This document shows positions 295 through 14,615 of a DNA stretch of 64,000 nt, in pieces. The notes beneath the pieces are model-generated. The model did not search any database. It worked only from the letters and a program-made list of their open reading frames with translations, and was not told where the DNA came from. Numbering within the stretch: position 1 is the first letter of the stretch; every line of letters begins with the position of its first letter. The DNA lies in NCBI RefSeq assembly GCF_007923255.1, contig NZ_VOHJ01000001.1:62001-126000 (forward strand). The letters are read 5' to 3'. Origin of the DNA: Vulcaniibacterium thermophilum. GTDB taxonomy: Bacteria; Pseudomonadota; Gammaproteobacteria; Xanthomonadales; Xanthomonadaceae. The position numbers and the translations under genes are program-made.

Positions 295-358
295 GAGCGA
301 CGGATCCGTTCCACGGCCGCCTCCGCGGCGGCCTTCGCATGTCCGTAAGGAGTTCCCG

Positions 359-1411
359 ATGGCCACCTGGATCGTGACCGGCGGCGCCGGCTTCATCGGC
401 GGCAATTTCGTGCTGGAGGCGGTGCGCCGGGGCGTCCGCGTCGTCAATCTCGACGCGCTGACCTACGCCGGCAACCTCGACACGCTCGCCTCCATCGCCG
501 ATGCGGACCATCATGTGTTCGTGCATGGCGACATCGGCGACGGCGAATGCGTGGAGCGCCTCCTGCGCGAGTACCAGCCGGACGCGATCGTCAACTTCGC
601 GGCGGAGAGCCACGTCGACCGCTCGATCGACGGCCCGGCCGCGTTCGTGCGCACCAACGTGGTCGGCACCCTGAACCTGCTGGAGAAGGCCCGCGACTAC
701 TGGCGCGGCCTGGATGCGGCGCGGCGCGACGCGTTCCGCTTCCTGCACGTGTCCACCGACGAGGTCTACGGCAGCCTGGGTCCGACCGGCAAATTCACCG
801 AGCAGACGCCCTACGCGCCGAACTCGCCGTACTCCGCCTCCAAGGCGGCGTCGGACCATCTGGTGCGCGCGTTCCACCACACCTACGGCCTGCCGACGCT
901 GACCACCAACTGCTCGAACAACTACGGGCCGTTCCAGTTCCCGGAGAAGCTGATCCCGCTGATGATCGCCAAGGGCCTGGCGGGCGAGCCGCTGCCGGTC
1001 TACGGCGATGGCCTCAACGTGCGCGACTGGCTCTACGTCGGCGATCATTGCGCGGCCATCCGGCGCGTGCTCGAGGCCGGACGCGTCGGCGAGACCTACA
1101 ACATCGGCGGCGACGCCGAGCGCGCCAACATCGAAGTGGTGCGCGCGATCTGCCGCCTGCTCGACGAGCGCCGCCCGCTGCCCGATGGCATCGCGCGCGA
1201 GTCGCTGATCACGTTCGTCAACGACCGCCCCGGTCACGACCGCCGCTATGCGATCGACGCGTCGAAGATCAAGCGCGAACTGGGTTGGCAGCCGACGGTG
1301 ACGTTCGAGGAGGGCATCGCGCTGACCGTCGACTGGTACCTGGACAACCAGGCATGGGTGCGGCGCGTGCTCGACGGCAGCTACCGCCTCGAACGCATCG
1401 GCCAGGGCTGA
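359..1411 (+). CDS. rmlB: dTDP-glucose 4,6-dehydratase
   Basis: Converts dTDP-D-glucose to dTDP-4-keto-6-deoxy-D-glucose, the second step of dTDP-L-rhamnose synthesis for LPS or exopolysaccharide. 350 residues, the usual family length. It is an extended SDR enzyme: the NAD-binding motif [10 protein letters not shown] is at residues 8-17, the Thr-Asp-Glu catalytic group (STDEVYG) at 132-138 and the YSASK active-site pair at Tyr158/Lys162. The start at 359 is chosen because AAGGAG lies at 347-352, six bases upstream, and the protein then begins just before the Rossmann strand; a longer reading from 128 would add low-complexity sequence overlapping ssb. First gene of rmlBACD, with tight spacing to rmlA (10 bases). 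Confidence 0.96.
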
Positions 1412-1421
1412 GGACGCAGGC

Positions 1422-2306
1422 ATGGCACGCAAGGGCATCATCCTCGCCGGCGGCTCCGGCACCCGGCTGTATCCGCTGACGCAGGCGGTGAGCAAGCAAC
1501 TGCTGCCGGTGTACGACAAGCCGATGATCTACTACCCGCTCAGCGTGCTGATGCTGGCGGGCATCCGCGACGTGCTCATCATCAACACGCCGCACGAGCA
1601 GGTCCTGTTCCAGCGCCTGCTGGGCGACGGCGCGCAATGGGGCATGCGCTTCGAGTACGCCGTGCAGCCCAGCCCGGACGGGCTCGCGCAGGCGTTCCTG
1701 ATCGGCGAGCGCTTCCTCGACGGCGCGCCGAGCTGCCTCGTGCTCGGCGACAACATCTTCCACGGTCCGGGGCTGACCGCGCTGCTCAAGCGCGCCGACG
1801 AGCGGCGCGAGGGCGCCACCGTGTTCGGTTACTGGGTGCACGACCCCGAGCGCTACGGCGTCGCCGAATTCGACGCATCGGGCCGCGTGATCGGCATCGA
1901 GGAGAAGCCCGCGCGGCCGCGGTCCAATTACGCGGTGACCGGCCTGTACTTCTACGACGGGCGTGCGCCGCAGTTCGCCGCGGCCTTGAAGCCTTCCGCC
2001 CGTGGGGAGCTTGAGATCACCGATCTGAACCGCCGTTACCTCGAGGAAGGCAGCCTGCACCTGGAGCGTCTCGGCCGCGGCTACGCCTGGCTCGATACCG
2101 GCACCCACCAGTCGCTGCTGGAAGCGTCCACCTTCATCGAGACGATCGAGGCGCGCCAGGGCCTGCGGATCTGCTGTCCGGAGGAGATCGCCTGGATCAA
2201 CGGCTGGATCGGCGACGAGGATCTCGTCCGGCTGGCCAGACCGCTGGCGAAGAACGGCTACGGGCAGTACCTGCTCAGCCTGATCGAGCGGGGCCACGTG
2301 CCATGA
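1422..2306 (+). CDS. rmlA: Glucose-1-phosphate thymidylyltransferase
   Basis: Joins glucose-1-phosphate and dTTP to give dTDP-glucose, the first step of dTDP-rhamnose synthesis. 294 residues, standard for the short RmlA class. The nucleotidyltransferase signature [11 protein letters not shown] starts at residue 10, followed by KPMIYYPLS and the metal-site region LGDNIF. The C-terminal part holds the conserved [10 protein letters not shown] segment. Second gene of the operon; its stop overlaps the rmlC start (ATGA at 2303-2306), so translation is probably coupled. Confidence 0.97.
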
Positions 2307-2860
2307 AAGTGATCGGCACCGACCTGCCGGGTTGCATGGTGATCGAGCCGAAGGTTTTCGAGGACGCGCGCGGCTTCTTCTACGAATCGTTCAACTGCGA
2401 CCGGCTCGCCGCCCACGGGCTGGACTTCCGCTTCGTGCAGGGCAACGTGTCCGCGTCGAAGCGCGGCGTCCTGCGCGGGTTGCACTACCAGTGGCCGAAA
2501 CCGCAGGGCAAGTACGTCACGGTGCTCGAGGGCGAGGTGTGGGACGTCGCGGTCGACATCCGCCGCGGCTCGCCCACCTTCGGCCGCTGGACCGCCGTGC
2601 TGCTGAGCGCCGACAACCGGCGCCACTTCTGGATTCCGGAAGGCTTCGCGCACGGCTTCGTCGCGCTCAGCGAGCGCGCGGTCTTCAGCTACCTCTGCAC
2701 CGCCACCTACGACCCGCAGGCGGACGCCGTGGTCCGCTGGGACGACCCGCAGCTCGCGATCGACTGGCCGGTGAGCGAGCCGCTGTTGTCCGACAAGGAC
2801 GCGCGCGCGCCGCTGCTGGCCGGGATCGATCCGGAGCGTCTCCCCGTCTACCGGCCATGA
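2303..2860 (+). CDS. rmlC: dTDP-4-dehydrorhamnose 3,5-epimerase
   Basis: Epimerises C3 and C5 of dTDP-4-keto-6-deoxyglucose, the third rhamnose step. 185 residues with the RmlC double-stranded beta-helix. The catalytic-base region LRGLHYQW puts the conserved histidine at residue 61, and the [12 protein letters not shown] segment that forms part of the pocket is present. The gene starts in a 4-base overlap with rmlA and its own stop overlaps the rmlD start, so all four enzymes appear to be read from one message. Confidence 0.97.
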
Positions 2861-3765
2861 GGCTGCTGCTGCTCGGCGCCAACGGCCAGGTCGGCCATGA
2901 ACTGCGGCGCAGCCTGGCGCCGCTCGGCGAAGTGGTGGCGACCACCCGCACCGGCATGCTGCCGGACGGCGGCCCGTGCGAGGCGCTGGATCTGCACGAG
3001 CCGGGCAGCGCCGCGCGCATGATCGAACGCGTGCGCCCGGATGCGGTGATCAACGCCGCGGCCTACACGGCGGTCGACCGCGCCGAGGACGAGCCGGCAT
3101 CGGCCTTCCGCATCAACGCCGAAGCGCCTGCGGACATCGCGCGCGCCTGCGCCGCGCTCGCCATCCCGCTGGTGCATTACTCGACCGACTACGTGTTCGA
3201 CGGCACCGCCACGCGGCCCTACCGCGAGGACGATCCCACCGCGCCGCTCGGCGTGTACGGCGCGAGCAAACTCGCCGGCGAGCGGGCGATCCGCGACAGC
3301 GGCTGCGCGCACCTGATCCTGCGCACCGCGTGGGTCTATGGCCTGCACGGCCACAACTTCCTGAAGACGATGCTGCGGCTCGCCGCCGAACGCGATGCGC
3401 TGCGCGTGGTCGACGACCAGATCGGCACGCCGACCCCGGCCTGGCTGATCGCCGACGTGACCGCACGTCTGCTGCGGGACGGACTGCACGTGCGCGGCGT
3501 GCGCCACCTGACCGCGGCAGGCCGGACCTCCTGGCATGGCTTCGCGAGTGCGATCGTCGAGCAGGCGCATGCCCGCGGCCTGCTCGCGCGCGCGGTCCCG
3601 GTGCACGCGATCGCCACCGCCGACTTCCCGACCCGCGCCCGCCGCCCGGCGTTCTCCGTCCTCGACTGCGCGGCGCTGACGCAGGATCTGCGCGAGCCGC
3701 TTCCCGACTGGAACGCAGCGCTCGCCGCCACCCTGGAGGGGGTGACCCCCGCCGCGATCCGTTGA
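2857..3765 (+). CDS. rmlD: dTDP-4-dehydrorhamnose reductase
   Basis: NAD(P)H-dependent reduction of dTDP-4-keto-L-rhamnose to dTDP-L-rhamnose, the last step. 302 residues. It begins [13 protein letters not shown], the dinucleotide-binding strand and loop; further on are STDYVFDG and VYGASK, the SDR active-site Tyr and Lys. The start at 2857 is an ATGA overlap with the rmlC stop; longer readings in this frame would run through rmlC. Last gene of rmlBACD. The next gene, a secreted peptidase, starts 69 bases on with its own leader, so the operon probably ends here, although I see no clear terminator. Confidence 0.97.
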   Translation: MRLLLLGANGQVGHELRRSLAPLGEVVATTRTGMLPDGGPCEALDLHEPGSAARMIERVRPDAVINAAAYTAVDRAEDEPASAFRINAEAPADIARACAALAIPLVHYSTDYVFDGTATRPYREDDPTAPLGVYGASKLAGERAIRDSGCAHLILRTAWVYGLHGHNFLKTMLRLAAERDALRVVDDQIGTPTPAWLIADVTARLLRDGLHVRGVRHLTAAGRTSWHGFASAIVEQAHARGLLARAVPVHAIATADFPTRARRPAFSVLDCAALTQDLREPLPDWNAALAATLEGVTPAAIR

Positions 3766-3834
3766 GTGTCGGGCAGCCCCCGTCTGACATACGCTTGTCG
3801 CGGGGATGCCCGTCACAGCAAGCAGGGGACAGCA

Positions 3835-5832
3835 ATGAAGACAGGGGTATGGATCGCGGCCGGTCTGGCGCTGGCGTGCGCGTTCGGCGCGCGCGCGGCG
3901 GCGGAGCCGGCACCGTTGCCGATCGAGGATTTCGTCCGCCACCCGACCTACAGCGAAGTCAGGATCTCGCCCGCCGGCGAGTACCTGGCGATGACGGTCG
4001 ACCGCGGCGGGCAGGACGTACTGACCGTGCTGCGCACGGCCGACCTGAGCATCGTCAAGGTCAACCAGCTCCCCGACGAGAAGAGCATCGGCTCGTTCTA
4101 CTGGGTCAGCCGCGACCGCCTGGTGTTCAACGCGGTCAAGAAATTCGGCCGCTTCGCCGCTCCGTTCAACACCGGCGAGTGGTACGGCGTCAACGCCGAC
4201 GGCAGCCAGCCGCGGCCGCTGGTGTTCTTCGGCACGCTCGATGCGACCCAGCGCAACAAGACCACCGACGGCATCTACAGCATGCTCGACACCCTGCGCG
4301 GCGACGACCAGCAGGTGCTGATGGCGGTCGCCAAGCCGCGCTCGAGCAAGGGCGCCGGAACCGAGGTGGTCGCGCTGGACGTGCTCTCCGGCCGCCGGCG
4401 CGAGATCGTCCGTGCGCCGCGCGAGAACTGCTCGATCGAGACCGACGCCAGCGACCAGCCGCGTTTCGCGGTCTGCTACGACGCGCAGAACGATGCCGGC
4501 CAGTTCGAGGAGCACCTCGAGCTGTACCGGCTGGAAGGCGCCAAGTGGGTGCTGATGAACCGCTCGCAGGATGCGGGCACCCGCATCCGGATCGTCGGCG
4601 TGGCGCCCGACGGCACCGTCTACGCGGAGCAGGACGACCGTAAGGCGCCGGCCGCGTTCGGCACGCTGGACCCGTCCACCGGCAAGTTCACCAAGCTGTT
4701 CCAGGATCCGGTCGCCGACCCCGCGGGCTACATCCGCGCCGCCGACATGCGCACGATCATCGGCGTGGTCACCGAGGCCGGCGCGCCGAAAGTGCATCTG
4801 CTGAACGAGGAACATCCCGACGCCGAGCTCTACGCCTCGCTCGCGCAGGCTTTCCCCGGCCAGTTCGTCACCTTCTCCAGCGCGACCGACGACGGCCGCA
4901 AGATCGTCGTCACCGTGCGCAGCGACCGCAATCCGGGCGAGTTGTACCTCTACGACCGCGACACCGGCAAAGCGCGTTTCCTCATGCAGAGCCGCAAGTG
5001 GATCGATCCCAAGCGCATGGCGAGCGTGAAGCCCTTCAGCTTCACCGCCCGCGACGGCGTGCGGATCTACGGCTACCTGACGATCCCGAACGGCTCCGAC
5101 GGCCGCAACCTGCCGATGATCGTCAATCCGCACGGCGGCCCGATCGGTCCGCGCGACCACTGGTTCTTCAACTGGGAAGCGCAACTGCTCGCCAGCCGCG
5201 GCTACCTGGTGCTGCAGGTGAACTACCGCGGCTCCGGCGGCTACGGCCAGGCCTTCCAGGACATGGGTCATCGGCAGTGGGGCGGCAAGATGCAGGACGA
5301 CCTCACCGATGCGGTGCGCTGGGCGGTCGCCCAGGGCTACGCCGATGGCGACCGGGTCTGCATCTACGGCGGCAGCTACGGCGGCTATGCCTCGCTGATG
5401 GGCGTGGCGAAGGATCCGGACCTGTACAAATGCGCGTTCGGCTACGTGGGCCTGTACGACGTGCAGATCCAGAAGAAGCTCAGCGACACCGCGGACTGGT
5501 ATGCCGGCCAGAGCTTCTTCGAGCGCACCTTCGGCGCCACCCGCGCCGAGCAGGATGCGATCTCGCCGGTCAATCACGCGCACAAGATCAAGGCCGCCGT
5601 GTATCTCGCCGCCGGCGCGCGCGATCAGCGCTGCCCGCCCGAGCACACCGAGGCGATGCGCGACGCCCTGATCAAGGCCGGCAATCCGCCCGAGGGCGTG
5701 ATCATCCAGTCCGGCGAGATGCACGGCTTCTACGACGAGAAGAACAACCTGAAGCTGTACACCGAGATGCTCGCCTTCTTCGGGCGGCACATCGGCGGCA
5801 AGGTGCAGGTCGGGGACGCCAAGCGCGAGTAG
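3835..5832 (+). CDS. Secreted S9-family (prolyl oligopeptidase-like) peptidase
   Basis: Serine peptidase expected to trim oligopeptides outside the cytoplasm. 665 residues: a signal peptide (about residues 1-23, ending ARAAA), an N-terminal beta-propeller-like half, and a C-terminal alpha/beta-hydrolase domain from about residue 405. The triad is Ser514 in GGSYGGY, Asp597 in GARDQR and His630 in EMHGFYDE. The start at 3835 gives a good signal peptide after an AGGGGA-type ribosome site; the reading from 3766 would bury it. A strong terminator follows at 5865-5896. It is a paralogue of the interrupted gene just downstream, with the same layout and long shared motifs. Confidence 0.93.
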   Translation: MKTGVWIAAGLALACAFGARAAAEPAPLPIEDFVRHPTYSEVRISPAGEYLAMTVDRGGQDVLTVLRTADLSIVKVNQLPDEKSIGSFYWVSRDRLVFNAVKKFGRFAAPFNTGEWYGVNADGSQPRPLVFFGTLDATQRNKTTDGIYSMLDTLRGDDQQVLMAVAKPRSSKGAGTEVVALDVLSGRRREIVRAPRENCSIETDASDQPRFAVCYDAQNDAGQFEEHLELYRLEGAKWVLMNRSQDAGTRIRIVGVAPDGTVYAEQDDRKAPAAFGTLDPSTGKFTKLFQDPVADPAGYIRAADMRTIIGVVTEAGAPKVHLLNEEHPDAELYASLAQAFPGQFVTFSSATDDGRKIVVTVRSDRNPGELYLYDRDTGKARFLMQSRKWIDPKRMASVKPFSFTARDGVRIYGYLTIPNGSDGRNLPMIVNPHGGPIGPRDHWFFNWEAQLLASRGYLVLQVNYRGSGGYGQAFQDMGHRQWGGKMQDDLTDAVRWAVAQGYADGDRVCIYGGSYGGYASLMGVAKDPDLYKCAFGYVGLYDVQIQKKLSDTADWYAGQSFFERTFGATRAEQDAISPVNHAHKIKAAVYLAAGARDQRCPPEHTEAMRDALIKAGNPPEGVIIQSGEMHGFYDEKNNLKLYTEMLAFFGRHIGGKVQVGDAKRE

Positions 5833-5864
5833 CGTTTGCTCCGCGTCCGACGCCTGCTAGCATC

Positions 5865-5896
5865 CGACGGCCACCGGGGAGGTGGCCGTCGTTTTT
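5865..5896 (+). terminator. Intrinsic terminator after the first S9 peptidase gene
   Basis: A perfect 11-bp stem (5865-5875 with 5881-5891), a 5-base GGGGA loop and five T at 5892-5896: a textbook rho-independent terminator on the + strand. It separates the first S9 gene from its paralogue, so the second should have its own promoter or depend on read-through. Confidence 0.92.
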
Positions 5897-5917
5897 CCGG
5901 GACAGGGGAGGTCTCCG

Positions 5918-7900
5918 ATGCGCTTCGCGCTCTTCGTTTCGTTGCTGATCGCCGGCCTGCTGGCCGCCGTGCCCGCCGACGCGGTCGACATCGACCGCTT
6001 CCTGCGCAAGGACACGTTCGAGAAACTCACGATCTCGCCGACCGGCGACTACTTCGCCGCGACCGTGCCGTTCGAGGACCGCACCGCGCTGGTGATCCTG
6101 CGCCGCAGCGACAGGAAGCTGCTCGGTACGTTCTCCCTCGGGCGGCATTCGCACGTGCAGGAGTTCGTCTGGGTCAGCCCGGAGCGGCTGCTGATCGCGG
6201 TGGCGGAGAAGATGGGCTCGCTCGACCGGCCGGTGCTGACCGGCGAGCTGTTCGCGATGGACGCCGACGGCTCCTCGCCCGAGCTTCTGGTCGGCTATCG
6301 GGCCCAGGACAACGGTTTGGGCACGCGGATCGTCGGCAAGAAGGAGGAATTCGTTTACGCCGAGCTGGTCGACGACCTGCCGGCCGACGACCGCAACGTC
6401 ATCATCGCGGTCACCCCGTTCAGCGCCGACGCCTACAGCCGTGCGGACCGCATGGACGTGCACACCGGCCGCCGCGTCACCGTGGCGCGCTCGCCGGTGC
6501 GCAACGCCTCCTTCGTCACCGACAACAAGGGCGTGGTGCGTTTCACCTACGGCATCGGCACCGATCGGCGCATGCGCGTCTTCCACCGCGCCGCGGAGGG
6601 GCAGGAGTGGGAGCTGATCAGCGACGAAACCCGCACCGGCCTTGCGGAAATTCCGGTCGGCTTCGCCGAGGACGACCGCACCGCCTACCTCGTCGCCGAG
6701 CAGGCGGACGGCCCCGACAAGCTGATCGCCTACGACGTGGTGACGCGCGAGCGCCGCCCGGTGCTGGGGCACGAGATCGCCGACCCGGCGCGCCTGCTGT
6801 ATCGGCCCTACACCCGCACGCCGATCGGCGCGGTGTTCCTGGACGGCCGCCGGCACACGAGCTTCATCGACCGCAACTCGCCGGAAGCGCGCATGCAGCG
6901 CAACCTGGAGGCCGCGTTCGCCGGCCATGCGGTCGAGATGACCTCGCGCACGCGGGACGGCCGGCTGACGCTGGTCTAAGTGTTCAGCGACCGCAACCCC
7001 GGCGACTTCTACCTCTTCGACTCCCAGACCAAGAAGGCCGATCTCGTCATCAGCCGGCGCGAATGGATCGACATCGACGCCATGGCCGAACAGCGGCCGG
7101 TGACGATCGCCGCCCGCGACGGCACGACCCTGCACGGCTATCTCACCGTGCCGCGCGGCCGCGAGGGCAGGCTGCCGATGATCGTCCATCCGCACGGCGG
7201 GCCGTTCGGCGTGCAGGACGTGTGGGGGTTCGACGACGACGTGCAGATGCTGGCCGCGGCCGGCTATGCGGTGCTGCAGGTGAACTTCCGTGGTTCCTCC
7301 GGCTACGGCAAGGCGTTCCGTGCCGCCGGCGCGCGCGAGTGGGGCGGGCGCATGCAGGACGATCTCACCGACGCCACCCGCTGGGCCATCGCGCAGGGCC
7401 ATGCGGATCCGGCACGGATCTGCATCTACGGCGCGAGCTACGGCGGCTACGCGGCGCTGATGGGCGTGGCGAAGGAGCCCGACCTGTACGCGTGCGCCGC
7501 CGGCTACGTGGGCGTGTACGACCTGCCGACCATGTACAGCCACGGCGACATCCAGCGCAGCACTTCCGGCGAGACCTACCTGCGCGAGTGGCTCGGTGCG
7601 CCGGAAGCGGTGGCCGCGGTCTCGCCGGCGCGGCTGGCCGGGCGCATCCGCGCACCCGTGTTTCTGGCCGCAGGCGGCGAGGACGAGCGCGCTCCGCCGC
7701 AGCACACCGAGATGATGGAGAAGGCGCTGCGCCGCGCCAACGTGCCGGTGGAAGCGCTGTACTACGCGACCGAGGGCCACGGCTTCTATCGCGAGGAGCA
7801 CCGCCGCGAGTACTACGCGCGCCTGCTCGCGTTCTTCGCGCGGCATCTCGGCGGACAGGCGGCGACGACCGGCGCCGCGCCGGCCGACGCGAAGAAATAG
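5918..7900 (+). pseudogene. S9-family peptidase gene interrupted by one in-frame stop
   Basis: A paralogue of the gene at 3835, with signal peptide (MRFALFVSLLIAGLLAA), propeller-like half and hydrolase half, 661 codons in a single frame. The frame is broken only by TAA at 6977-6979, in the motif where the neighbour reads VTVRSDRNPG and this gene reads V-stop-VFSDRNPG. No frameshift is present and the sequence is well conserved on both sides. The triad is intact beyond the stop: Ser507 (GASYGGY), Asp589 and His621 in full-length numbering. As read, 5918-6979 would give a 353-residue exported fragment without active site. A GTG at 6980 could open a 306-residue hydrolase domain without signal peptide, but I see no ribosome site for it. 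Recent nonsense mutation, sequencing error or read-through are all possible. GGGGAGG at 5906-5912 supports the start at 5918. Confidence 0.85.
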
Positions 7901-7924
7901 CGGCGTTCCGGCAGTCGTGGGCGA

Positions 7925-7956
7925 ACGGCCCGATGCGTTATGCTCGGGCCGTTTGT
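7925..7956 (+). terminator. Hairpin terminator between S9 peptidase and OPT genes
   Basis: Nine-bp perfect stem ACGGCCCGA (7925-7933) with TCGGGCCGT (7944-7952), 10-base loop, then TT. It lies 25 bases after the peptidase stop and just before the OPT start at 7978. The T-tract is short, so efficiency is uncertain. Confidence 0.65.
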
Positions 7957-7977
7957 CCGTCTGCCCTCGGAGCGCAC

Positions 7978-9915
7978 ATGAGTTCGCCGGCACAGATTCC
8001 CCAGCTGACGTTTCGGGCCGTTCTTCTGGCCGTCATCCTCGCGGTCGTGCTGTCGGCGGCCAATGCCTATCTCGGTCTGTTCGCGGGCTTGACGATCGCC
8101 ACCGCGATTCCGGCGGCGGTGGTCTCGATGGGCGTGCTGCGTCTGCTCGGCGGCGGCACGATCCTCGAGAACAACATCGTGCAGACCGGCGCCTCGGCCG
8201 GCTCCTCGATCGCGGCGGGCGTGATCTTCACCATCCCGGCGCTGCTGATCCTCGGTTACTGGCAGGACTTCAAGTACTCGTGGGTGCTCGCCATCGCCGG
8301 TCTTGGCGGTCTGCTGGGCGTGCTGTTCTCGGTGCCGCTGCGGCGTTCGATGATCGTCGAGGACCCGCTGCCGTTCCCGGAAGGCAAGGCCGCCGCGGAA
8401 GTGCTCAAGGCCGGCGAGAACCCCGGCCCGGGGCTGAAGATCCTCGGGCTGTCGGCGGGCATCGGCGGGCTGGTGAAGCTGGCCGCCGAGAGCGGCCTGC
8501 GGATGATTCCCGACAACGCGGCCGGCGCCGGCTTCTTCGGCAAGTATCTGGGCTACATGGGGACGGGGCTTTCGCCGGCGCTGCTGGGCGTGGGCTACAT
8601 CGTCGGGCTCAACATCGGCATCGTCGTGGTGTCGGGCAGCATCCTCGCCTACAACATCGCCATTCCGCTGTACCACGCGTTCTTCCTCGCCGGCGATCCG
8701 GAAGTCGCCGCGCAGGTGGCGGGCAAGACGGCGGCGGAGGCGGCGGCGATCATCCGCGCCGAACGCATCCGTTATCTCGGCGTCGGCGCGATGCTGATCG
8801 GCGGCATCTGGACGCTGTTCTCGCTGCGCAAGTCGTTGCTGTCCGGCATCCGCAGCGGCATCGCCGCCGCGCGCAAGGGCGCGGGTGCGAATCTCGCCGA
8901 GACCGAGCGCGATCTGCCGATGAAGTGGATGCTGGTCGCGCTGGTGCTGTTCATCCTGCCGCTGCTCGCGCTGTACCAGGCCATCGTCGGCAGTTGGGGC
9001 GTCAGCGTGCCGATGACGATCATCATGATCGTGGCGGGCTTCCTGTTCGTGTCGGTGTCGGCGTATCTGGCCGGTCTGGTCGGCTCGTCCAACAACCCGG
9101 TGTCGGGCATCACCATCGCCACCATCCTGTTCGCGTCGGTGGTGCTGATGCTGCTGCTGGGCAGCGACTCCAAGATCGGCGCGGTGGCCGCGATCATGAT
9201 CGGCGCGGTGGTGTGCTGCGCGGCGGCGGTCGGCGGCGACAACCTGCAGGACCTCAAGGCCGGTTATCTGGTCGGCGCGACGCCGTGGAAGCAGCAGTTG
9301 ATGCTGGGCATCGGCGCGTTCTCGTGCGCGTTGATCATGGCGCCGGTGCTGAATCTGCTGCACCAGGCCTACGGCATCGGCGATCCCACCCGCGAGGGCT
9401 CGCTGCAGGCTCCGCAGGCCACGCTGATGGCATCGGTGGCGCAGGGCATGTTCGGCGGCAAGCTGCCGTGGGACATGATCGCCGCCGGCGCGGTGATCGG
9501 CGCGATCGTGATCGCGATCGACAGCGCGCTGAAGGCGCGCGGTTCGCACTTCCGCGTGCCGGTGCTGGCGGCCGCGATCGGCATCTATCTGCCGCTGGAG
9601 CTGATGGTGCCGATCTTCCTCGGCGGCCTGCTGGCGTATTTCGTCGAGCGCCGCCACGGCGTCGTGGGCGCCGACGAGAGCCTGCGCGACCGCGTGCATC
9701 GTCCCGGCGTGCTGTTCTCGGCCGGCCTGATCACCGGCGAGGCGCTGATGGGCATCGCGATCGCCATTCCGATCGTGGTGAGCGAACGCGCCGACGTGCT
9801 GGCGCTGCCGGAGCGGTTCCACTTCGGTCAGGCGGTCGGCCTGGCGGTGCTGGCCATCGTCGGCTGGCTGATCTACCGCACCGGCGTGCGCGCACCGCAC
9901 GCGCCGCGCGCCTGA
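7978..9915 (+). CDS. OPT-family oligopeptide transporter
   Basis: Inner-membrane carrier of the OPT/YSL family, expected to import oligopeptides by proton symport. 645 residues, almost wholly hydrophobic, with about 14-16 membrane segments starting at residue 12. Family features include the early segment AANAYLGLFAGLTIATAIPA, the NNIVQTGASAGSS stretch near residue 60, and SSNNPVSGIT in the middle. The start at 7978 is preceded by CGGAG; an ATG at 7933 in the same frame would fall inside the terminator stem and is less likely. Sitting among exported peptidase genes, it fits a role in taking up their products. Confidence 0.92.
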   Translation: MSSPAQIPQLTFRAVLLAVILAVVLSAANAYLGLFAGLTIATAIPAAVVSMGVLRLLGGGTILENNIVQTGASAGSSIAAGVIFTIPALLILGYWQDFKYSWVLAIAGLGGLLGVLFSVPLRRSMIVEDPLPFPEGKAAAEVLKAGENPGPGLKILGLSAGIGGLVKLAAESGLRMIPDNAAGAGFFGKYLGYMGTGLSPALLGVGYIVGLNIGIVVVSGSILAYNIAIPLYHAFFLAGDPEVAAQVAGKTAAEAAAIIRAERIRYLGVGAMLIGGIWTLFSLRKSLLSGIRSGIAAARKGAGANLAETERDLPMKWMLVALVLFILPLLALYQAIVGSWGVSVPMTIIMIVAGFLFVSVSAYLAGLVGSSNNPVSGITIATILFASVVLMLLLGSDSKIGAVAAIMIGAVVCCAAAVGGDNLQDLKAGYLVGATPWKQQLMLGIGAFSCALIMAPVLNLLHQAYGIGDPTREGSLQAPQATLMASVAQGMFGGKLPWDMIAAGAVIGAIVIAIDSALKARGSHFRVPVLAAAIGIYLPLELMVPIFLGGLLAYFVERRHGVVGADESLRDRVHRPGVLFSAGLITGEALMGIAIAIPIVVSERADVLALPERFHFGQAVGLAVLAIVGWLIYRTGVRAPHAPRA

Positions 9916-9944
9916 TCTCCCCTGCATAGCCCGGAGTTTCCGAG

Positions 9945-12017
9945 ATGAAGTTCGCTGCTTCGTTGCTCGCCGCCGCGCTCGTGGCTGCCCTGCCTTCGAC
10001 GGCCCTTGCGGCGCGGGGGTTCGAGGCGCGCGATCTGGCCGCCCTCGATCGCTATTCGGCGCCGACGCTGTCGCCGGATGGCCGCTTGCTGGTGTTCGCC
10101 AAGCGCGTGGTCGATTACGGCGCCAACAAGGCCAGCACCTCGCTGTGGATCGAGGACCTGCGCGCGCGCGACGCGGCGCCGCCGAAGCGGCTGACTCCGG
10201 ACGGCTGGAACGTCAACTCGCCGGCGTTCTCGCCCGACGGCCGCACGGTGTATTTCCTCAGCGCCAAGTCCGGCAGCCAGCAACTGTATGCGGTGCCGGC
10301 GTCGGGCGGGACGCCGCGCCAGGTCACTGCCTTCGATGCCGACGTCGGCAGTTACCGCATCTCGCCGGACGGCCAGCGGGTGGCGTTCTCCGCCGAGGCG
10401 TTCGTCGAGTGCGGCGCCGATCTGTCCTGCACCAGGCGCAAACTCGACGAGCGCGAAAAGACGAAGGCGACGGGCCGCTCGTTCGACCGCCTGTTCATCC
10501 GCCACTGGGACAGTTGGAACGACGGCCGCCTCAACCGGCTGTTCGTCGCCGAGCTTCCGCGCGGCGACAAGCCGGTCGCCGAGGCGGTGCTGGTGAGCGA
10601 CGACGTGGTCGGCGACGTGCCTTCGCGCCCGTTCGGCGACGACAGCGAGTACGCCTGGGCGCCCGACGGCCGCAGCCTCGTGTTCGCCGCCCGCAAGGCC
10701 GATCGCACCGAGCCGTGGTCGACCAATTTCGATCTGTACCTCGCCGCCGCCGACGGCAGCGGCGAGGCGCGCAATCTCACCGCCGACAACCCCGCCTGGG
10801 ACACCGGCCCGCTGTTCTCCGCCGACGGCCGCACGCTGTACTACCGCGCGATGAAGCGTCCGGGGTTCGAGGCCGACCGCTTCGCGATCGTCGCGATGGA
10901 CTTGGGCAGCGGCCAACGCCGCGAGATCGCGCCGAAGTGGGACCGTTCCGCGGACGCGATGGAGCTGTCGGAAGACGGCCGCACGCTGTACGTCAACGCG
11001 CAGCACCTGGGCGAGCATCCGCTGTTCGCGGTCGACATCGCCACCGGCATGGTGTCGCCGATCGTGCGCGAGGGTTCGGTGTCGGACTTCGATCTGGAGG
11101 CGGGCACGCTCGCGTTCGCGCGCAGCACGCTCAGAAGCGGCGACCAGATCTTCGTCGGCGGCATCGGCGGCGCGCCGGTGCGCGCGCTCACGCCGAGCGC
11201 GGGCGAGATGCTGCCCGACGTGCGCTTCGGCGACTTCGAGCAGTTCAGCTTCAAGGGCTGGAACGGCGAGACCGTGCACGGCTACGTGGTCAAGCCGTGG
11301 AACTACGAGGAAGGCAAGACCTATCCGGTCGCGTTCCTGATCCACGGCGGCCCGCAGGGCAGCTTCGGCAACGGCTGGAGCTACCGCTGGAACCCGCAGA
11401 CGTACGCGGGCCAGGGCTACGCGGTGGTGATGATCGACTTCCACGGCTCGACCGGCTACGGCCAGGCGTTCACCGATTCGATCAGCCAGCACTGGGGCGA
11501 CCGTCCGCTGGAGGATCTGCAGAAGGGCTGGGCGGCGGCGCAGCAGAAGTATCCGTTCCTCGACGGCTCGCGCGCGTGCGCGCTGGGCGCCAGCTACGGC
11601 GGCTACATGGTCAACTGGATCGCCAGCCAGTGGCGCGAGCCGTGGAAGTGCCTGGTGAGCCATGCCGGCGTGTTCGACACGCGGATGATGGGCTTCTCGA
11701 CCGAGGAGCTGTGGTTCACCGAATGGGAGAACGGCGGCACGCCGTGGGATGCGCCGAAGAACTACGAGCGCTTCAATCCGGCGCTGCACGTGGACAAGTG
11801 GAAGGTGCCGATGCTGGTGATCCACGGCCAGCTCGACTACCGTATTCCGGTGGAGCAGGGCATCGCCGCGTTCACCGCGTTGCAGCGCCAGGGCATCGAG
11901 TCGAAGTTCCTGTACTTCCCCGACGAGAACCACTGGATCCTCAAGCCGCACAACAGCGTGCTGTGGCACGACACGGTGAACGGCTGGCTGCGCAAGCACA
12001 TCGGCGACGGGCAGTGA
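9945..12017 (+). CDS. Secreted S9-family peptidase (acylaminoacyl/dipeptidyl type)
   Basis: 690 residues: signal peptide (MKFAASLLAAALVAALPSTA), several WD40/TolB-like strand repeats (for example LSPDGRLLVF, FSPDGRTVYF, ISPDGQRVAF) forming the propeller, and a C-terminal S9 hydrolase domain. Triad Ser550 (GASYGGYM), Asp631 (GQLDYRIP) and His663 (DENHWIL). The TolB-like propeller and the order of motifs place it nearer to dipeptidyl/acylaminoacyl peptidases than the two S9 genes upstream, so it is a separate branch, not a third copy of the pair. Starts 29 bases after the OPT stop and ends 4 bases before the DUF819 gene, so the three may be co-transcribed. Confidence 0.93.
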   Translation: MKFAASLLAAALVAALPSTALAARGFEARDLAALDRYSAPTLSPDGRLLVFAKRVVDYGANKASTSLWIEDLRARDAAPPKRLTPDGWNVNSPAFSPDGRTVYFLSAKSGSQQLYAVPASGGTPRQVTAFDADVGSYRISPDGQRVAFSAEAFVECGADLSCTRRKLDEREKTKATGRSFDRLFIRHWDSWNDGRLNRLFVAELPRGDKPVAEAVLVSDDVVGDVPSRPFGDDSEYAWAPDGRSLVFAARKADRTEPWSTNFDLYLAAADGSGEARNLTADNPAWDTGPLFSADGRTLYYRAMKRPGFEADRFAIVAMDLGSGQRREIAPKWDRSADAMELSEDGRTLYVNAQHLGEHPLFAVDIATGMVSPIVREGSVSDFDLEAGTLAFARSTLRSGDQIFVGGIGGAPVRALTPSAGEMLPDVRFGDFEQFSFKGWNGETVHGYVVKPWNYEEGKTYPVAFLIHGGPQGSFGNGWSYRWNPQTYAGQGYAVVMIDFHGSTGYGQAFTDSISQHWGDRPLEDLQKGWAAAQQKYPFLDGSRACALGASYGGYMVNWIASQWREPWKCLVSHAGVFDTRMMGFSTEELWFTEWENGGTPWDAPKNYERFNPALHVDKWKVPMLVIHGQLDYRIPVEQGIAAFTALQRQGIESKFLYFPDENHWILKPHNSVLWHDTVNGWLRKHIGDGQ

Positions 12018-12021
12018 GCGC

Positions 12022-13272
12022 ATGACGGCTCCCGCCTCGGGCGCGCTGATCGCCAACGACGCCGTCGTTCTCGGCCTGCTCGCCGCCATTCTCGGCGCGG
12101 TGTTCTGGACCGCGTCGCGGCCGACCGGATTCTGGAAGAAGTTCTACGGGGTCGTGCCTGCGATCCTGCTGTGCTACTTCCTGCCGGCGGTGCTGAACTC
12201 GGCGGGCGTGATCGACGGCAAGGCCTCCGCGTTATATCCGATGGCGCGCGATTACCTGCTGCCGAGCGCGCTGGTCCTGCTGTGCGTGGCGATCGACTTC
12301 AGGGCGATCGTCCGCCTCGGACCGAAGGCGGTGGTGATGTTCCTGGTCGGCACCCTCGGCGTCATGCTGGGCGGCGTGGTGGCCTTTCTCGCGATGGGGG
12401 CCATCCATCCGGAAACGGTCGCCGGCGATACCTGGCGCGGCATGACGACGGTCGCGGGCTCGTGGATCGGCGGCGGCGCCAACCAGGCGGCGATGAAGGA
12501 GGTGTTCGCGGTCGATGCCACCACCTTCGGCCAGTTCGTCGCGGTCGATGTGCTGGTGGCGAACGTCTGGATGGCGGTACTGCTGTTCCTGGCCGCGCGC
12601 AGCGAGGCGTTCGACCGCTGGACGCGCGCGGACCTGTCCGCGATCGACGATCTCAAGCGCCGGGTGGAGGCCTATCAGGCCGAGCACACGCGTATTCCCA
12701 CGCTCACCGACCTCACCGTCATCGTCGCGCTCGGGCTCGGTGCGACCGGCCTTGCGCATGCGATCACCGACCCGCTGGTGGCATGGCTGTCCAGCCTGCC
12801 GGCCGAATGGCGGTTGCAGGACTACAGCCTGACCGCGCGCTTCTTCTGGATCACGGTGCTCGCCACCACGTTCGGGCTGGCGCTGAGCTTCACCCGCGCG
12901 CGGCGGCTGGAGGGCGCCGGCGCGTCGAAGGTGGGATCGGTGTTCCTGTACGTGCTGGTGGCGACCATCGGCATGCAGATGGATCTTCGCGCGCTGCTCG
13001 ACCGCCCGTGGCTGTTCGCGCTCGGGCTGATCTGGATCGCGGTGCATGCCGCGCTGATGCTGGGCGTGGCCAAGCTGATCCGGGCGCCGCTGTTCTTCAT
13101 GGCGGTCGGTTCGCAGGCGAACATCGGCGGCGCCGCGTCGGCGCCGGTGGTGGCCAGCGCGTTCCATCCGGCGCTGGCGCCGGTGGGCGTGCTGCTGGCG
13201 GTGCTCGGTTACGCGCTGGGCACCTACTGCGCCTATCTCACGGGGCTGGTGCTGCAAGCGCTCGCCGCCTGA
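12022..13272 (+). CDS. DUF819-family membrane protein (YjcL-like)
   Basis: 416 residues with about 10-11 membrane helices. The sequence has the family's GSWIGGGANQAAMKEVF stretch near residue 152 and a second glycine-rich repeat, GSQANIGGAASAPVVA, near residue 365; the two resemble the inverted halves of a transporter. The substrate is not known for the family. It begins 4 bases after the S9 peptidase stop, which suggests co-transcription and perhaps a role in uptake or export of peptidase products; that link is inference only. A hairpin at 13287-13309 ends the unit. Confidence 0.85.
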   Translation: MTAPASGALIANDAVVLGLLAAILGAVFWTASRPTGFWKKFYGVVPAILLCYFLPAVLNSAGVIDGKASALYPMARDYLLPSALVLLCVAIDFRAIVRLGPKAVVMFLVGTLGVMLGGVVAFLAMGAIHPETVAGDTWRGMTTVAGSWIGGGANQAAMKEVFAVDATTFGQFVAVDVLVANVWMAVLLFLAARSEAFDRWTRADLSAIDDLKRRVEAYQAEHTRIPTLTDLTVIVALGLGATGLAHAITDPLVAWLSSLPAEWRLQDYSLTARFFWITVLATTFGLALSFTRARRLEGAGASKVGSVFLYVLVATIGMQMDLRALLDRPWLFALGLIWIAVHAALMLGVAKLIRAPLFFMAVGSQANIGGAASAPVVASAFHPALAPVGVLLAVLGYALGTYCAYLTGLVLQALAA

Positions 13273-13327: not shown

Positions 13328-14197
13328 TCAGTAGGTGGTGGCGAACGTGCGCTTGCAGGGCGTCGGCGACACCACCGCGGCCCCGTTGTTGAGCTGATCC
13401 AGCCAGTTCTTGAGCTGTTCGAGCTGCTCGCGGGTGGCGGCCGGGTCGGTCAGGGCGGCGTTGGCGTCCTCGAGCAGTTCGTCGATCGTGCACTGGCACG
13501 GCAGGAAGGTCGAACTGCCGTTGACGTAGCCGCCCTCCACGTTGAGCGTCATCGCCGCCAGGTGCGAGGACAGCTTGTAGGCCATGTTCACCGCGGTGCT
13601 GCCCAGCAGCCAGGTGCGGAACTGCTCGTAGCCGGTGGGATCGAACGCGTTGCCGGCGGCGTCGACCAGATTGAGGCTGGAGAGCAGGTTGAGCTCGGGC
13701 GCCATCGTCCCGCCGTCGGCCAGCTTCGCCTCGCCGTTCCTGTTGCTCCAGAAGCCGGGTGTGCGGCCGCCGCTGCCTTTCAGGCAGTAGTTGCCGAACT
13801 TCACCGTGACCGTCTTGCAGGGCACGACGGTGACCGACACCGGATGGGTGGCGGGAGCGGAGCGCACCCAGTTGGTTTCGACCGGCATCGATTCCTCGAC
13901 CGTGTAGGTCGCACCACCCGGCAGTCCGCTCCAGGTGGCGGTGGTGAGCCGGGTGCTGGCGCTGACGCCGGGGCCGTTCAGCGTCATCGGCCAGCTCGAC
14001 AGCCAGGGTTCGTACGCGTCGCGCACGCCGTTGGCGTTGGCGTCGTAGAACTTCTTCACCACGATGGTGCCGTGGTTCGGATCGACCGTGGTCGCCGTCT
14101 GCGCCAGCGCGGGCGCGGCCAACGCACAGGCGGCCAGACCGATCGCGGGAAGCAGGCGCCGGATCGCGGCATGCAGGCTCGGATGGTTGTTCTTCAT
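13328..14197 (-). CDS. Exported protein with Cna-B/SdrD-like and TPGFW segments
   Basis: 289 residues. Signal peptide about 1-33 (LLPAIGLAACALAAPALA), then a prealbumin-like (Cna-B/SdrD type) beta-sandwich from about residue 42, seen as GTIVVKKFYDANANGVRD and GLPGGATYTVEES. After PCKTVTVKFGNYC comes GRTPGFWSNRNGE, a motif found in many surface or secreted proteins with an all-alpha tail. Several cysteines (KFGNYC, PCQC, PC near the C-terminus) suggest disulfides. No sorting signal or lipobox is seen, so it is probably released or loosely attached. The start at 14197 has AGAGAGG upstream and gives the signal peptide; longer readings add non-signal sequence. Function unknown. Confidence 0.8.
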   Translation of the reverse strand: MKNNHPSLHAAIRRLLPAIGLAACALAAPALAQTATTVDPNHGTIVVKKFYDANANGVRDAYEPWLSSWPMTLNGPGVSASTRLTTATWSGLPGGATYTVEESMPVETNWVRSAPATHPVSVTVVPCKTVTVKFGNYCLKGSGGRTPGFWSNRNGEAKLADGGTMAPELNLLSSLNLVDAAGNAFDPTGYEQFRTWLLGSTAVNMAYKLSSHLAAMTLNVEGGYVNGSSTFLPCQCTIDELLEDANAALTDPAATREQLEQLKNWLDQLNNGAAVVSPTPCKRTFATTY

Positions 14198-14615
14198 TGG
14201 AAGCCTCTCTTGCGAAAGGGCTCCCGCATCGGACGTCCGTCCTACCGCATGGCACATGGAGCCGTGTGTCGGAAGCTGCCGATGGGCAGCGCGCGCTGCG
14301 ACCGCCTCATGCGCTCGCATGCGCGGCGGACACCGTAGGTGCGAGGTCGTGAACGACGCGACGAGGAGCCACCCGCCGGCCGGCCCGTCAGGCGCTGCGC
14401 GTGCCGCCGGGCCACGTTGCGCGTCCCGCCGCGCGGGCCGACAGCGAAGCAGGCCTGGGGCGGCGCTGGCGGCGTTTCGCCCGCACTCGCGTCCGTGCCT
14501 GGCCGGGATCGGGTCTCACGCGGGAGCGCGACCGCCCGCCGGCATGCGGACACGGGAGAGCAGCCGCATCGGGCTCAGCCGTTGAGACGGCGTGGGCGTC
14601 CAATGGGCGCGGGCG
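14198..14615. other. Long intergenic region between the Cna-B gene and lexA
   Basis: About 420 bases between divergently read genes. Reading frames here are GC-rich chance frames of Arg/Ala/Pro composition without ribosome sites or family motifs. I see no RNA gene, repeat or strong hairpin; only the lexA promoter and operator at the right end are recognisable. Confidence 0.5.

Follow-up and report, generated by a model that had tools for sequence, protein, structure and literature searches.

Three genes for S9 peptidases (prolyl oligopeptidase family, PF00326), here termed S9a, S9b and S9c, lie in the analysed window, i.e., 64,000 nucleotides of contig NZ_VOHJ01000001.1 of Vulcaniibacterium thermophilum, together with a transporter gene which we take to belong to the OPT family (Table 1). 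S9c is nearest to the Dpp5 model (NF053518) and scores below its cut-off (471.7 vs 900 bits).

Table 1. Features of the S9b locus; positions refer to the window
Feature	Position	Strand	Description
S9b 5' half	5918..6976	+	Codons 1-353: N-terminal hydrophobic stretch, bulk of the beta-propeller
In-frame TAA, codon 354	6977..6979	+	Sense residue in 44/44 aligned orthologues
S9b 3' half, opened by GTG	6980..7900	+	Rest of last blade and Peptidase_S9 hydrolase; PF00326, E 4.8e-51
S9a, intact S9 paralogue	3835..5832	+	PF00326, E 9.8e-52; separate clade in tree
OPT oligopeptide-transporter-like gene, downstream neighbour	7978..9915	+	78-84 % identical in 7/18 S9b loci
S9c, third S9 peptidase	9945..12017	+	PF00326, E 9e-65

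The S9b reading frame (5918-7900, plus strand) opens with ATG and closes with TAG at 7898-7900, comprising 660 codons plus the terminal stop. As described in the initial annotation, the S9 peptidase gene is broken by a single in-frame TAA (codon 354 of 660), directly followed by a GTG (6980-6982), while the frame contains no other stop or frameshift and is co-linear with that of the neighbouring S9a (~42 % identity between the two). TAA is the rarest stop in the contig, terminating only 6 of the 134 frames scored as coding. A run of 660 random codons would contain no more than one stop with a probability of ~1e-4 (window base composition, independent bases), homology being the stronger evidence for the frame. 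Downstream of the stop, the motifs SDRNPG (codon 357), GASYGG (505), GGED (586) and EGHGF (619) are present, and the active site is kept, as also noted initially: Ser507, Asp589 and His621, to which a catalytic role is presumably to be assigned as in other members of the family, are intact, Ser507 being invariant and the other two nearly invariant in a 33-row alignment. The N-terminal hydrophobic stretch, read by eye, is likely an export signal.

The hydrolase half of S9b matches PF00326 over profile positions 1-212 of 213 (173.7 bits vs a gathering score of 22.6), whereas its score against the Dpp5 equivalog model, when scanned alone, is far below the cut-off (65.7 vs 900 bits). For the first half, no Pfam or NCBIfam match was obtained at E 0.001. 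A confident structure model of the readthrough product, calculated from 33 sequences (mean pLDDT 87.7, pTM 0.87), has the overall fold of the S9 carboxypeptidase of Geobacillus (8wt1), a puromycin-hydrolysing peptidase (7c72) and an acylaminoacyl peptidase (5l8s); the solved S9 chains ranked 1-8 cover propeller and hydrolase at TM 0.66-0.68 by model length. Sequence identity of S9b to these three is only 16-19 %, and their substrates are not transferable. The strands of the last propeller blade are modelled at residues 338-344, 350-356, 363-368 and 373-379; the hydrolase part follows from about residue 392, some 38 residues past the stop. Codon 354 is thus placed inside strand 350-356 rather than between propeller and hydrolase domain, as had been assumed initially, and translation from 6980 would give a product with just a stub of this strand plus two further strands of the blade. 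As the TAA separates most of the propeller from the hydrolase, S9b would encode both in one chain only in the case of an erroneous or bypassed stop.

The nearest orthologues of S9b belong to other genera of the same family, which the named relatives suggest to be Lysobacteraceae (59-60 % identity for full-length copies, 63 % for one contig-edge copy). At this divergence, saturation of silent sites is to be expected. S9 peptidases of this family share with S9b the hydrolase domain, the propeller, the Ser-Asp-His triad and the locus order, but are mostly encoded in one uninterrupted frame. The set of 44 aligned orthologues omits broken copies, divergent co-orthologues (e.g., L028, the second copy of L049, L156), the fused L027, the contig-edge L079 and same-genome duplicates (e.g., L050, L063, L066), and includes L015 and L029, which are cut at contig edges. 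None of the 44 has a stop in the codon-354 column, as is expected of a premature stop in a nonsense pseudogene. The residues found there are Tyr (23), Gln (7), Glu (3), Phe (3), Arg (2) and, once each, six further ones; for Tyr, Gln and Glu, the standard code includes codons that a single substitution converts into a stop. Contrary to the initial view of a stop in a conserved motif just before SDRNPG, the stop column itself is variable (11 residue types). Val occupies the subsequent column in 36 of the 44 orthologues, so that the GTG probably represents the inherited valine codon.

With the hydrolase half as query, 395 genomes of the family were scanned, and 208 of them gave matches at E <= 1e-120, a cut-off at which badly broken copies would go unnoticed. 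Among the 150 matches listed (counted by hand), all frames have at least 607 residues except that of the S9b genome itself (306), i.e., a short hydrolase frame occurs in none of the 149 others. Among these matches, two separate genes are accordingly not an inherited arrangement, and a shared or conserved split of S9b was rejected, as no relative examined has it. Many rows marked as having stops inside had suggested recurrent breaks; for the rows fetched as loci this was rejected, the only internal stops there being that of the query itself and one located at the gene end (residue 651). A literature search returned nothing on S9b among the titles and abstracts retrieved.

Four of 48 copies (the 44 aligned orthologues plus these four) are broken elsewhere in the gene, with lesions that are all different: (i) a stop within the serine motif of the Xanthomonas sp. 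NCPPB 1128 copy (L070, 6001-7962), (ii) a frameshift in X. arboricola pv. guizotiae (L075, 384-2290), (iii) two frame breaks in Pseudoxanthomonas sp. NC8 (L080, 6001-7940), and (iv) an internal deletion with frame change at the same locus in Lysobacter soli KCTC 22011 (L081, 6001-7417). Some of these may be draft errors. The proportion of otherwise broken copies suggests that loss of S9b is tolerated and that the gene is dispensable. The deletion in L. soli leaves a hydrolase frame of 307 residues, 65 % identical to that of S9b.

Both halves of S9b have retained ordinary constraint and codon bias. Their GC3 values (0.946 and 0.918) and coding scores (0.52 and 0.48) compare with 0.918-0.946 for GC3 in rmlA, rmlC, S9a, S9c and the gene at 12022 and with 0.46-0.52 for coding scores in intact neighbours, the OPT and rmlB rows being left out of this comparison because of misplaced starts. 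By end-branch length, the N half ranks 7 of 45 and the C half 13 of 45. Near-invariant columns show 6 deviations in 58 and 3 in 122, which is within the range of the other rows. Normal codon bias and branch lengths in both halves indicate a stop that is either recent or not real. As S9b carries no additional lesion, it would have undergone about 15-44 neutral substitutions at most since its loss (0.7-2.2 % of its length), assuming that about 7-20 % of neutral changes are disabling (2.4 % nonsense computed, indel share assumed). S9b resembles nonsense-disrupted bacterial pseudogenes in having one premature stop in an otherwise intact gene, but differs in lacking secondary decay so far, which implies a very young break or a wrong base. 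The alternatives of recent break or sequencing error, proposed at the outset, are thus both in line with the ordinary constraint and codon bias of the two halves and with a stop shared by no relative examined.

The interpretation favoured here, with a probability of roughly 0.65, is that S9b, coding for an ordinary and probably exported S9 peptidase, is a recent nonsense allele in which the enzyme is disabled. A single nonsense mutation would have been gained recently at codon 354; translation would begin at 5918 and end inside the last blade, yielding an incomplete propeller without catalytic domain, and the S9b enzyme would be lost in this genome provided that the base is real and no active product is formed. 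An unlikely but serious competitor is a base-calling or assembly error in an intact S9b: the assembly is an 80-contig draft, neither half shows decay, and one wrong base would suffice and look identical in a comparison set in which this genome is the sole representative of its genus. Against such an error, bacterial genomes commonly contain genuine nonsense alleles, and breaks of this kind are uncommon in the 219 kb contig. There, 10 same-frame stops (that of S9b included) have coding signal on both sides, as judged with a coding-potential model trained from seed genes in four retraining rounds (the OPT seed was out of frame, yet the OPT gene was recovered). At none of the other nine does the best-scoring Pfam stretch span the stop: the stops fall between different domains, or the stretch lies wholly on one side (for protein 4, with two GGDEF stretches, only the best one was placed). 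For protein 6 (stop at 155910), which lacks any Pfam match, the sequence reads by eye as a gene end with an inverted repeat and a T run behind it. A generally error-prone assembly was therefore not seen in the one contig scanned, with which one single error stays compatible.

Distinctly less probable than an error is a pair of working cistrons, in which ribosomes ending at the TAA restart on the GTG, so that the catalytic domain would be made separately, as the initial annotation had considered. UAA and GUG adjoin, conservation of the hydrolase half matches that in relatives, and reinitiation, described as considered frequent in prokaryotes (PMC5972666), would fit such a restart. However, Shine-Dalgarno pairing before 6980 amounts to only -2.2 kcal/mol, compared to a strong -11.8 kcal/mol at 5918, and is weaker than the median (-2.8 kcal/mol) of 2000 random 20-mers from the window. 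A weak site is no bar to starting, as illustrated by the presumed start at 12022 with just -3.2 kcal/mol, but neither a good ribosome site nor a conserved start was found for the second half at 6980. Furthermore, the cut falls in mid-strand of the modelled blade, the C half has no N-terminal export-like sequence, the GTG corresponds to the inherited valine position, and the other matches listed lack a short hydrolase frame; separate formation of the catalytic domain thus found no support. Even less probable is a very young gene fission, in which the abutting UAA-GUG would couple termination to restart, yielding two products, a propeller that is exported and a hydrolase, probably cytosolic, that remains active. 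Proof that the hydrolase half is made alone would turn the locus into a clean case of one-step gene fission.

Readthrough of the stop, giving full-length enzyme at low level, would agree with the fully intact frame downstream of the TAA, but ranks as the most improbable of the possibilities considered. UAA is generally the least leaky stop codon, none of the 44 orthologues has a stop at codon 354, and no TAA-reading anticodon was found at any of 46 tRNA matches. An altered code or suppressor tRNA was likewise rejected, ARAGORN having assigned sense anticodons to all 46. At the sequence level the stop in S9b is real, and biologically it is ordinary: in one lineage, a conserved peptidase next to a transporter-like gene is being lost or was mis-sequenced. 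Its significance hardly extends beyond annotation, for which it cautions against taking an adjoining GTG for a new start.

With respect to S9b as a recently disabled gene, the two intact paralogues S9a and S9c may cover for the lost enzyme. The neighbourhood at 344-13272 of the window is conserved in Lysobacteraceae and comprises the presumed rmlBACD genes, one or two S9 peptidases, the OPT-like transporter, S9c and a presumably DUF819-like membrane protein. In 18 loci chosen for carrying S9b or a near co-orthologue, some of which end at contig or flank edges, 13 contain rml genes, 15 S9c, 7 the OPT-like transporter and 4 S9a; in the tree, S9a forms its own clade with four relatives. These counts indicate that the broken S9b has a conserved place, S9a being the optional gene. 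Loss of one of two adjacent paralogous peptidases, as suggested initially, is therefore possible, but the copy affected is the one with the conserved locus position. L154 and L157 hold different S9 genes and were left out of the 18; in both (5199-7129 and 5130-6457, respectively), S9 propeller and hydrolase parts are in different frames, reflecting a frameshift or separate genes. Next to the conserved neighbourhood, a frame for a 330-residue protein, by eye probably secreted, is located on the minus strand of the window (13328-14320).
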